Positions 1-5,722 of a stretch of DNA of 32,211 nt are shown here, piece by piece. The position numbers and the translations under genes are program-made. The notes under the pieces are model-generated. The model did no database searches. It had not been told where the DNA came from and saw nothing but the letters and a program-made list of their open reading frames with translations. Each line of letters begins with the position of its first letter. Position 1 is the stretch's first letter. Source of the DNA: Nitrospirota bacterium (GTDB lineage Bacteria; Nitrospirota; Thermodesulfovibrionia; Thermodesulfovibrionales; Magnetobacteriaceae); contig JADFXG010000011.1 of NCBI GenBank assembly GCA_015233895.1, positions 5,001 through 37,211 of the forward strand, written 5' to 3'.

Positions 1-2489
1 AACACAGTCTTACATCTTAATGTTGTTACCGTGTTTTTAATATCTGTAAACGGCACAGCTGTTGCCTTTAACCTGTTTATATCCGTATCAGCCGATATAT
101 AGTAATAAAAGTTTTTTATAGGATCGTTTGTTCCATGCCCTGAAAGCAGCACCATGACGACATCCTCATCGTTTATCTTGCTTTTATCCAGCCAATCAAA
201 GCCATCCAAAATGTTTTCTTTTGTGGCTTCTTCATTTGGTATCCTATGGGCTATTACTTCTTTATAAAGTATGTCTTCTTGTTCTCTCATAACTTTTACA
301 AAATCTTTGGCGTCTTTTTCTGCAAAACTTAGATTTCTGATTGCAGGGCTTTGATAGTCATTAATTCCAACAGAAAGAATAAAAAGTCTGGGTTTTTGAG
401 GAATTGATGAGGCACTCTTAGCTGTGCCCTTAGATGTTCCTTTCCATTTAATAACCACAATAGCGGGTTCACTTGCAGAGTGTTTATTTTCTGCTACTAA
501 GGCTATTGTACAATCCTCCTCAGGAATTTTTACTGCTATTTCATCCTCATTACTTTCTATGCCTTTATAGTTAAAGCTGGTCTTTATTTCCTGTTTAACG
601 CCGTTAACTATAACCTTAAAAGCCGTAAGCGGAGCATCAGCCGGAGTTCGCACCTCATATTTGATCACAAGCTCAGTGTTGGCAGCCTCAGCTCCGGAGA
701 CAGGCGACAGGATTTTAACAACCGGCGGTAACGTTTTGGTTACTGACGCCGTTTGGGTTTTCAGGTTTGCCTCTTCATTTGCCTGTCTTATAGCCTCATC
801 CTCATCAAGCGTATCGAGCACTTTTGATACTATATCCGGTCTATAATAGATATGGCTGAATTTTGATATAGAGTAGAAATCCGCCTCTTTGTCTTTGCCT
901 CTGTTTACGTGCCAGCCGATTAACTCATCGCCGCCTACTGAGGCATCGTAATACCCAGTTGGCGTCCATAAAACCCATTTATTTCTATCTTTATCATTAA
1001 GCGGAAAAAACGCTAACAGTTCTTTCCCATCCCTTACTCTAAACCACCTAATCGTTCCGTCTGCAAAAGCCGCTACTGCTATTTTCCCATTTTGAGATAC
1101 GTTTACGTTCCATGCTACACTGGGTACAGCTATATTCCACTTTTCTTTTCCGTTTTTATCAAAGAGTCTTAAAGCCCACTCTGAGGCAAGCAAAAAACCG
1201 CTGTCATCAGGCAATATCGCAAGGCTCCTCGATCTTTCATGCTGCTTTAGTTGTAAGGCTCTCTCATTTAGTTGTGGGTTATAATTATTAAGCCAGTCTG
1301 TAACATCTAATTTATCAGATTTCAAAATCGGTTTAAGCAGGTTATCTTTAAAATTGGAAACATCTAACAACTCTCTATCTTTAAGTGAAAAAACTTTAGG
1401 AGAGTTACCACCTTGTTCATACCAAAACCTAATAGTTTTTGTATCTTTTGATATTTGAAATTCCTCAGTATTTCCTCTATAGTCGGGTTTATCACCTTGC
1501 TTAAAAACAATTCGTTCATCCTTTTTATCAAATATTCCAAATGCCGGGTCTTGTGAACCAAAAACAATGCCATCATTTTTAAGTGGTACGATTTGCATTA
1601 TGGTACTAACTGAAGCTGAAAGGTCTTTGTATTGTCCTTTTCCACCATTTGACCATTTTCTGATAAAACATTGCCCATTGACAGATGCTTTTCCACCGGC
1701 ATAGAGGTAGTTACCGTCAAGTGAAAAAGAAACTATGGAGAAATCACCGTTAGCATCGGATGTATCAGGTGAGTATTGATAAGAAAGGTCACTGCCGGAT
1801 AGTATTTCCACTTTGTTCTTACCAATAATCCCAACCGCTATATTTGAGCCATTGGGCGAAAAAGCCACTGAGAATGGTAAGCTGCCTCCCTGTGGTTTTT
1901 CCTTTTTGATTAGTTTAAACTCTCTGTCATAAAGCCGGATGTATCCATCATCAGATGAAGTAACAAGCCTGCCTTCTTTGTCGAAATCAGCGCCGTAACT
2001 ACTATCGCCATAATCAGTGTCTGAAGCTACTTGTGAGTAACCATCTGTTTCATAAATCCGAATGCCGTTAGCTCCTCCCAATGTTGCAGCAAGAAACCTA
2101 CCATCTTTAGAATATGAAAGATGTTGTATAACATTAGGCAGCCATGTAATCCGCTTTATTAGTTTTCCGCTCTGCCTGTCAAATATGTATATTGAAGCAG
2201 ATTTATCCCATTCGTAACCTGTCCACCCGCCGCTGGCAATCGTCTCTCCGTCAGGAGATATGGCAACCGCATAGATTTTTCCCTCTTTGCCCTCACCGAT
2301 GGGAACTCTGAGGGTTTGTAGAAGCCTTATCGAGGAAAGATCACGAATATCCCACACTTTTATAGTTTTGTCTTCTGAGCCAGTAACAAGATATTTATTT
2401 TCGGAATCAACACCAATTCTTCCAATTGGCGCCGTGTGCATTTCAGTATTTAAACGAAGGATTGGCTCAGAGGGCGGCTCTTTAGGCAT
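1..2489 (-). CDS. WD40-repeat / caspase-like (peptidase C14) protein, C-terminus cut by window edge
   Basis: The frame is open from ATG 2489 to the left edge, giving 829 visible codons without a stop. AAGGAG lies just upstream of the ATG. Residues ~15-540 hold WD40-like blades, for example KTIKVWDIRDL near the start and GTIRWFRVRDG near the end. A linker with WTPTGYYDAS is typical of bacterial caspase-WD40 fusions. The C-terminal part is caspase-like: LFILSVGINDYQSPAI (first strand and loop), then VVMVLLSGHGTND carrying the catalytic His. The window ends at about the point where the DxCHxG catalytic Cys strand should begin, so the dyad cannot be confirmed. Such proteins are thought to be proteases activated through WD40 scaffolds. 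The substrate is unknown. The gene lies 28 nt downstream of the Rpn nuclease gene on the same strand, so the two are probably co-transcribed. Confidence 0.88.
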   Translation of the reverse strand, partial: MPKEPPSEPILRLNTEMHTAPIGRIGVDSENKYLVTGSEDKTIKVWDIRDLSSIRLLQTLRVPIGEGKEGKIYAVAISPDGETIASGGWTGYEWDKSASIYIFDRQSGKLIKRITWLPNVIQHLSYSKDGRFLAATLGGANGIRIYETDGYSQVASDTDYGDSSYGADFDKEGRLVTSSDDGYIRLYDREFKLIKKEKPQGGSLPFSVAFSPNGSNIAVGIIGKNKVEILSGSDLSYQYSPDTSDANGDFSIVSFSLDGNYLYAGGKASVNGQCFIRKWSNGGKGQYKDLSASVSTIMQIVPLKNDGIVFGSQDPAFGIFDKKDERIVFKQGDKPDYRGNTEEFQISKDTKTIRFWYEQGGNSPKVFSLKDRELLDVSNFKDNLLKPILKSDKLDVTDWLNNYNPQLNERALQLKQHERSRSLAILPDDSGFLLASEWALRLFDKNGKEKWNIAVPSVAWNVNVSQNGKIAVAAFADGTIRWFRVRDGKELLAFFPLNDKDRNKWVLWTPTGYYDASVGGDELIGWHVNRGKDKEADFYSISKFSHIYYRPDIVSKVLDTLDEDEAIRQANEEANLKTQTASVTKTLPPVVKILSPVSGAEAANTELVIKYEVRTPADAPLTAFKVIVNGVKQEIKTSFNYKGIESNEDEIAVKIPEEDCTIALVAENKHSASEPAIVVIKWKGTSKGTAKSASSIPQKPRLFILSVGINDYQSPAIRNLSFAEKDAKDFVKVMREQEDILYKEVIAHRIPNEEATKENILDGFDWLDKSKINDEDVVMVLLSGHGTNDPIKNFYYYISADTDINRLKATAVPFTDIKNTVTTLRCKTV

Positions 2490-2517: not shown

Positions 2518-2775
2518 TTACAAACTCTTTCCCAAAAACGCCTTTAATTCATCCATTGAACCTGCCAGTTTTATAAGATTTTTGAACTCCTCTAATTTGT
2601 CAACAGTGTTTAGAGCTTTGACCATATTCATTAACTCCAGTCCTGTTAAGCCAAATTTGATTTCAAGCATACCTTCAATGCCTTCAAGCAACCCTATACG
2701 CTCACCCTCAAGTAACCCTTCCTCCTTACCATCCAGATAAAGTTCATCTGTACTGATATCAATAGTTACCGGCAT
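2518..2775 (-). CDS. Candidate internal-start small protein from the 3' end of the Rpn gene (RpnS-like)
   Basis: ATG at 2775 is in frame with the Rpn gene (its residue 194). It is preceded by AGGGAGG (2790-2784) with an 8-nt spacer, one of the strongest Shine-Dalgarno sites in the window although it sits inside a coding region. The product would be 85 residues, starting MPVTIDISTDELYLDGK, and would contain only the helical C-terminal region without the nuclease core. In E. coli rpn genes an internally started C-terminal protein is known to inhibit the full-length toxic nuclease. Equivalence here is inferred from the site and its position. Confidence 0.5.
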   Translation of the reverse strand: MPVTIDISTDELYLDGKEEGLLEGERIGLLEGIEGMLEIKFGLTGLELMNMVKALNTVDKLEEFKNLIKLAGSMDELKAFLGKSL

Positions 2776-3354
2776 TTTCTTAACCTCCCTTTTAACGGAT
2801 TTTGTTAAACCTCTTAGTCTTGACAGGGTTAATAATTCTAAAATATAGTTCCGTCTGTCTTCAACTGGTAATTCATATAATTTAGCAATAATTCCCCTTA
2901 TTGTTCCATCGGCATCGTCTGTTTTACATAGTATTGCCAAAATATTATCGGCAGGGTCATCACTTTCAAGTAACTCTCTGCAGTCAATATCCCTGATGTC
3001 TATTATCCTGTAAGTGAAATGTAAACCAGGCATTTTAATTTCGTTTTTCATGTTCAGTTTTCCATCACCGACATAAAGAACTAATTGTTGGACAGATTTT
3101 CTAAAATTGCAGTATATCAGATATAAATATTCCAACTCCCTGCAATCCATATTCCGGTCATTTTGCGCCTGCATCTCCATGTGGAATAGTGAATCATCGG
3201 GAAGCTCAACCAGCAAATCCGGCTGTCTGTATTTAATCTCAGGAAATTGCACGTCCAGAAATTTTGCCGTTTCAAATCCAGTCATTATCTTCATAAATTT
3301 TCGCGGCAGTTTTTTCAAAATACTCTTTAATGTAATATCAAAGTATTGTGGCAT
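2518..3354 (-). CDS. Rpn family PD-(D/E)XK nuclease (recombination-promoting nuclease / putative transposase)
   Basis: This is a 278-residue protein. The N-terminal half carries the PD-(D/E)XK signature of the Rpn/YhgA family: D46 in RQPDLLVEL, then E60-x-Q62 in FHMEMQAQ. The core continues with ELEYLYLIYC and VQQLVLYVG strands. The C-terminus (from ~194) is a charged helical region with GKEEGLLEGERIGLLEG repeats and a DUF4351-like end. The start has AAGGAG about 10 nt upstream (leader 3355-3370). Family members are Mg-dependent DNA endonucleases, some of which act as growth-inhibiting phage-defence proteins. The stop lies 28 nt before the WD40-caspase start, suggesting an operon. Family assignment is firm; the role in this organism is not known. 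Confidence 0.88.
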   Translation of the reverse strand: MPQYFDITLKSILKKLPRKFMKIMTGFETAKFLDVQFPEIKYRQPDLLVELPDDSLFHMEMQAQNDRNMDCRELEYLYLIYCNFRKSVQQLVLYVGDGKLNMKNEIKMPGLHFTYRIIDIRDIDCRELLESDDPADNILAILCKTDDADGTIRGIIAKLYELPVEDRRNYILELLTLSRLRGLTKSVKREVKKMPVTIDISTDELYLDGKEEGLLEGERIGLLEGIEGMLEIKFGLTGLELMNMVKALNTVDKLEEFKNLIKLAGSMDELKAFLGKSL

Positions 3355-3400
3355 ATAAAATTCCTCTCCTTAAGTTTATGATAACATACACAAATTTATT

Positions 3401-5203: not shown

Positions 5204-5722
5204 ATGAATGTGGGTACGATTGAAAAAGATTTAGACTTAACGGAAATCATAAACGGCGAGGAAATCATGGGGCCTAGTCCATTTACGAGACATCAGAGAA
5301 TTGTTTTTAATTTGGCAGATATTTTGCGTCATTATGTTAAAAAGAATAATTTAGGGGAGGTATGTTTATCTCCACTTGACGTAATCTTTGAAGAAGGGAT
5401 TAACAGGCTTCAACCCGATATATTGTTTATCAAAAAAGAAAACATGTTTATCATCCAGGATTGGATAAGAGGCGTACCGGATATGGTTTGTGAGATAATA
5501 TCTTCAGGTAGTTATGAGATGGATACTGAAATAAAGAAGGCAATATACGAGAAGTACAGAGTACCTGAGTACTGGATAGTTATGCCGGAACCTCAAACGA
5601 TTGAGATATTAACCATCGTAGGTGATAAGTATAAACTACACTCAGTTGCAGCAATTGAGGGTTTTATCACATCTAAAGTCATAGAAGGGCTTCAGGTTAA
5701 CGTAAACGATATTTTTGAATAA
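5204..5722 (+). CDS. Uma2 family endonuclease-like protein (DUF820, PD-(D/E)XK fold)
   Basis: A 172-residue protein with Uma2 features in order: IINGEEIMGPSPFTRHQRI, SPLDVIF, LQPDILFIKKEN (the PD...D strand), MVCEIISSGS (the E strand), and the helix KKAIYEKYRVPEYWIV. The length matches the family. Uma2 proteins have a restriction-endonuclease-like fold and occur as many paralogues in cyanobacteria and in Nitrospirota such as Magnetobacterium. Their biological role is unsettled. The start is uncertain: ATG 5204 has no Shine-Dalgarno, and GTG 5210 would shorten the product by two residues. A hairpin follows the stop. The gene separates two sugar-related groups and may be an independent accessory insertion. 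Confidence 0.87.
   Translation: MNVGTIEKDLDLTEIINGEEIMGPSPFTRHQRIVFNLADILRHYVKKNNLGEVCLSPLDVIFEEGINRLQPDILFIKKENMFIIQDWIRGVPDMVCEIISSGSYEMDTEIKKAIYEKYRVPEYWIVMPEPQTIEILTIVGDKYKLHSVAAIEGFITSKVIEGLQVNVNDIFE

Follow-up and report, generated by a model that had tools for sequence, protein, structure and literature searches.

An rpn-type gene in a Nitrospirota bacterium carries, inside its own reading frame, a Shine-Dalgarno sequence and an ATG that, judged from the alignment of its homologues, are kept by selection at the nucleotide level. Translation almost certainly initiates internally at this ATG (position 2775). The gene would thus specify two proteins, the shorter of which is probably, by analogy with the Rpn systems of Escherichia coli, the antidote to the nuclease. 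Positions are those of the window, by which we mean the whole stretch of 32,211 nucleotides that was analysed. Same-frame overlapping genes are difficult to prove from sequence, and a ribosome site that stays constant while the overlying amino acids change is about the strongest evidence for internal initiation that sequence can offer.

The internal start site and the two predicted products

The minus strand around the internal site reads AAAAGGGAGGTTAAGAAAATGCCGGTA and, in a second excerpt, GTTAAAAGGGAGGTTAAGAAAATGCCGGTA. A first-pass annotation had placed AGGGAGG at 2790-2784, 8 nt before an in-frame ATG at 2775, and had proposed an 85-residue C-terminal product; all of this was confirmed on the sequence (Table 1). 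The spacer occupies 2783-2776. The 278-aa ORF (3354-2518) has the internal ATG at codon 194; from there 85 codons remain, and the stop codon is common to both ORFs. The 3' end of the 16S rRNA in the same genome is CCTCCTTT, the usual anti-Shine-Dalgarno sequence, and the internal AGGGAGG is therefore able to pair with it. The region of the internal start was slightly less structured in the mRNA than the rest of the gene, although this signal was weak (mean z +0.5). Codon choice at codons 196, 198 and 200 (window 2755-2769), just past the internal start, was also more uniform than expected. Uniform codons and a less structured start are what would be expected of an initiation region.

Table 1. 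Features of the rpn-type gene and its internal start site (window coordinates)
Feature	Position	Strand	Basis
Gene for a 278-aa Rpn-type nuclease (RpnL-like; the full-length product)	2518..3354	-	TIGR01784 (Rpn family) match under the curated cut-off
Shine-Dalgarno-like AGGAGAGG for full-length start ATG 3354	3363..3370	-	read from sequence
PD-(D/E)XK catalytic residues D6, D46, E60-x-Q62, R72	3139..3339	-	match RpnA D11, D63, E82-x-Q84, R94
Internal Shine-Dalgarno AGGGAGG	2784..2790	-	nucleotide-level conservation
Internal start codon ATG (Met194)	2773..2775	-	ATG in 147/149 aligned sequences; invariant column in 68
Internal ORF, 85 aa, RpnS-like, putative antitoxin	2518..2775	-	stand-alone copies start at or near the same SD-ATG
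Four-residue repeat region GKEEGLLEGERIGLLEG, from residue 16 of the 85-aa protein	2680..2730	-	length variation in 113 homologues

The catalytic core of the Rpn family (D, D, E-x-Q and R, as in RpnA) was present in the window protein. Among 68 homologues, D46 and E60 were invariant, and D6, Q62 and R72 were at least 90% conserved. The window protein matched TIGR01784 with E=1.5e-5 and 24.9 bits, which is under the curated cut-off of 52.1, and gave no Pfam match, being too weak for the PF04754 and PF12784 models. When all 68 family members were searched, TIGR01784 matched 60 at E<=0.01 (best 3.3e-14), PF12784 matched 20 and PF04754 matched 12. On these residues and profiles, the gene is a member of a divergent Rpn subfamily and encodes a putative DNA endonuclease.

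The short protein was predicted to form one long helix, starting within the repeats, and three short helices (pLDDT 66, moderate confidence). Structure prediction used two alignment rows. The same tail fold appeared in the full-length model, which had a pLDDT of about 25-35 across most of residues 1-120, so that its nuclease half is unreliable. A fold search with the short model yielded no significant Foldseek match, only helix-bundle background from which the RpnAS crystal structure (7th0) was absent, and when PDB sequences were searched with the family profile, the only match was a chance one to MED7. The repeats are runs of G-x-x-E-type tetrapeptides that vary in number. In 113 homologues the repeat region was 14-82 residues long, with a length of 2 mod 4 in 106 of them, and the part of the tail beyond the repeats comprised 41 residues in 110.

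Conservation of the internal site at the nucleotide level

We aligned 162 distinct homologous ORFs, 149 of which possessed a residue aligned to Met194; the 129 that were near full length were used to count Shine-Dalgarno sequences. As a null model, each gene's own synonymous codons were redrawn at random in 500 draws. Of these 129 homologues, which come from Nitrospirota relatives, 123 had GGAGG within the 18 nt preceding the aligned ATG, compared with 36.2 +/- 5.2 expected from resampling (maximum 55 in the 500 draws). After clustering at 90, 80, 70, 60 and 50% identity, GGAGG was found in 94/98, 56/59, 37/38, 19/20 and 9/10 sequences, where 28, 17, 10, 5 and 3 were expected (10.3 +/- 2.6 at 70%). 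The first-pass annotation had asked whether the site is conserved beyond what codon choice requires, and had named its loss from close homologues as the finding that would count against it. The excess over resampling (123/129 vs 36+/-5) answers the first point clearly, and such a loss was not seen, GGAGG being present in 123/129 and ATG in 147/149.

The signal was confined to one place. Other in-frame Met codons of the same ORFs had GGAGG at that distance in only 14 of 1129 cases, and a column-by-column scan found GGAGG in 95% of sequences at codon 189, against 26% at the next-highest column and a mean of 0.4% elsewhere. The spacer between Shine-Dalgarno sequence and ATG was 8 nt in 114 of the 129 homologues and 11 nt in 10, which form a sub-group with one extra codon. 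The Shine-Dalgarno sequence was weakened in about one in twenty homologues.

In this charged, purine-rich region, codon choice alone would yield GGAGG in 28% of genes. It might therefore be supposed that GGAGG is kept through the protein sequence (a K/R/Q-E-V/A linker) or through codon bias, and that no internal initiation takes place. The codon counts, together with the 123 sites found where 36 +/- 5 were expected and the invariant ATG, led us to reject this as a sufficient explanation, and we regard it as very improbable. Glu190, which lies within the motif, was encoded by GAG in 128/128 sequences, whereas in the rest of these genes GAG accounts for 50% of Glu codons. Nine kinds of residue (K, E, Q, R, M, L, A, W or T) preceded Glu190, but the codon at that place ended in G in 125/128. 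On the nuclease-domain tree, parsimony counted about 29 changes of this residue, and the G at the third base was kept in 109/112. Further, when pairs sharing an amino acid were compared, codons 190 and 189 ranked first and second of 278 in excess codon identity. These patterns indicate that conservation at the Shine-Dalgarno sequence is acting on the DNA and not on the protein alone.

An internal Shine-Dalgarno element is able to stimulate frameshifting when it lies 10-14 nt before a slippery run, as in dnaX. The element here could likewise cause ribosomes to pause between the two domains or to undergo a programmed frameshift there, instead of initiating, a reading to which we assign almost no probability. 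The codons before the ATG (AAGAAA, AGTAAG, CTGAAC, GAGGCA and others) include no conserved slippery sequence after the Shine-Dalgarno element, and a frameshift site was rejected for this reason. The invariant element is instead an in-frame ATG at the spacing of initiation (8 nt in 114/129), and stand-alone ORFs retain both it and the Shine-Dalgarno sequence.

A sibling Rpn subfamily provided a negative control. These genes (set L200-L229) come from five genomes of the same bacterial family and have strong scores for PF12784 (PDDEXK_2). They belong to the same nuclease superfamily and bear G-x-x-x repeats near the C-terminus, but lack GGAGG-ATG at the corresponding place: it was found in 1 of 19, and that one (L204) is of the window's subfamily. 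Elsewhere, the sibling genes held scattered TTG candidates only. As the sibling subfamily carries similar C-terminal repeat tails without the site, the site is not a by-product of a repeat-rich tail. Thus, not every Rpn appears to use the internal-start design, and the sibling subfamily may be controlled differently because it has no internal SD-ATG. The G-ending codon, the GAG, the fixed spacing and the invariant Met together offer an evolutionary test that can tell apart the Rpn subfamilies that have an internal antidote and those that lack one.

Stand-alone tails, distribution and neighbouring genes

Several loci carried the tail only, and the clearest of them show that, at the level of genomic sequence, the product of the internal start is also present separately as a gene. 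In three loci of one genome (L014, L016 and L020 of G000), the aligned ATG was the only well-placed start of the ORF. Similarity of these loci to full genes began at -25, -20 and -16 nt from the ATG, respectively, just including the Shine-Dalgarno sequence. Over all stand-alone copies, the edges of homology lay at -8, -16, -20, -22, -25, -48 and -60, the cleanest being 8-25 nt upstream. L016 corresponds to a full gene minus the stretch from about -480 to -20, a deletion. L139 is the syntenic counterpart of L014 in another species, with a flank 97% identical over 1.1 kb, and the dN/dS between the two tails was 0.21, on few changes (6.5 synonymous and 5.5 replacement). At two further loci (L042 and L127), a second tail gene lies immediately downstream of a full gene.

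Roughly 20 loci had an open tail with the nuclease half broken or missing, compared with 2 loci in which the nuclease half was intact and the tail broken. We take this imbalance as supporting evidence only, because the nuclease half offers a target 2.3 times larger and because errors occur in draft assemblies. One decaying copy (L198, G001:C1:458746-459113) had lost the nuclease domain by deletion and was broken within the repeats of its tail.

A protein 79% identical to the window protein (L059) is its nearest named relative; it comes from 'Nitrospirae bacterium isolate nDJH6bin1', on a contig of a genome (G003) that shares its genus with the window's genome. The window's own genome contained a large paralogous set of 30 matching stretches, and of 18 further genomes from its family, 17 contained matches, up to 59 in a single genome. 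A search of 296 genomes of the phylum with the 68-row profile gave matches almost confined to that family, and no relative was found in the viral contigs searched. Two genomes (G010 and G002) had up to about 60 rpn-like stretches each. Tandem rpn pairs were also observed, for example in L094 and L103, as were the arrangements of full gene plus tail in L042 and L127.

A WD40-caspase gene (3-2489, minus strand; Peptidase_C14, E=3e-6) lies downstream, 28 bp from rpn, and the first-pass annotation had hinted at a link between the two. A comparison of about 100 homologous loci did not support this: a WD40-caspase relative was found at two of them only, next to the window copy and next to one distant homologue, in the latter case on the opposite strand. 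A caspase partnership was rejected since this neighbour is not common to close homologues, and the adjacency looks incidental from the loci compared. The window also encodes a Uma2-type putative endonuclease at 5204-5722 on the plus strand (PF05685; PADLOC PDC-S03).

Proposed mechanism and comparison with known Rpn systems

We propose that one reading frame yields two proteins. Initiation at ATG 3354 would give the full PD-(D/E)XK nuclease (RpnL-like), and initiation at the internal AGGGAGG-ATG (2790/2775) would give the 85-residue C-terminal repeat-helix domain alone (RpnS-like). As both products contain the same domain, the most likely partner of the short protein is the nuclease's tail; pairing would occur through the variable repeat helix and keep the nuclease inactive until it is released on stress or phage attack. 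Synthesis, binding, inhibition, toxicity and the anti-phage role we infer from E. coli. Since the site is kept across more than 100 related genes, the E. coli design probably also operates in Nitrospirota.

The evidence above points to a selected start and not to the sign of its effect, so that the short protein could instead activate the nuclease or serve as its structural partner. Cas11d has such a relation to Cas10d, a precedent cited in PMC10327210 (Zhong et al., 2023). This is unlikely in our judgement: inhibition was seen for the Rpn pairs that have been tested in E. coli (PMC10327210), and nuclease-free tails together with the excess of broken nucleases beside intact tails better suit an antidote than a needed subunit. 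It is also conceivable, although improbable, that the tail is made separately but the pair serves mainly recombination or DNA mobilisation rather than toxin-antitoxin defence. RpnA promotes RecA-independent recombination (Kingston et al., 2017; PMC5350276), and the rpn-like genes here reach tens of copies per genome, some in tandem; against this, rpn genes show no sign of autonomous transposition, and RpnP2 protects against phage (PMC10327210).

In these Nitrospirota, the tail may have become an independent unit. A specificity network might then be formed by stand-alone antidotes and by paralogous toxin/antidote pairs, tens of them in each genome and differing in repeat number, and the sibling Rpn subfamily of related genomes, having no internal antidote, would be controlled otherwise. 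We offer this extension tentatively and consider it rather doubtful.

Compared with E. coli RpnA, full-length similarity of the window protein is too weak for a PF04754 or PF12784 model, but its D6, D46, E60, Q62 and R72 correspond to D11, D63, E82, Q84 and R94 with identical E-x-Q-x9-R spacing. Mutation of these RpnA residues abolished or altered RpnA phenotypes (PMC5350276). The internal start of E. coli rpnA, ATG244, was shown experimentally (PMC10327210), and in MG1655 rpnA an AAGGAG precedes ATG244 at the place corresponding to the window's internal site. In its crystal (7th0), RpnAS is a dimer and forms a three-helix bundle whose first helix is long; the window short protein is larger (85 aa vs 49 aa for RpnAS), with no detected tail sequence similarity.

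The window family differs from the RpnL/RpnS genes of E. coli and C. difficile in that a conserved Glu codon (E190), the fourth before the Met, is covered by its Shine-Dalgarno core. Further, unlike those genes, it forms a large paralogue set in Nitrospirota, and its function is putative. In both, a PD-(D/E)XK nuclease is combined with an internal SD-ATG before a C-terminal helical domain. The repeats of RpnL/RpnS begin 8-20 residues after the internal start, as do those of the window protein at residue 16, and the four-residue repeats of RpnS are hypervariable, their number setting pairing specificity (PMC10327210). Stand-alone tails occur in some genomes of both groups (here L014, L016, L020 and L139), some directly 3' of a full gene (here L042 and L127), as in E. 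coli rpnE-ypaA, where the tail gene directly follows the full gene (PMC10327210). The E. coli comparison drawn in the first-pass annotation therefore holds for the repeats and the stand-alone short ORFs, which match the description of RpnL/RpnS. The RpnL/RpnS design, tested in PMC10327210 with E. coli and C. difficile genes only, would thereby be carried to Nitrospirota.
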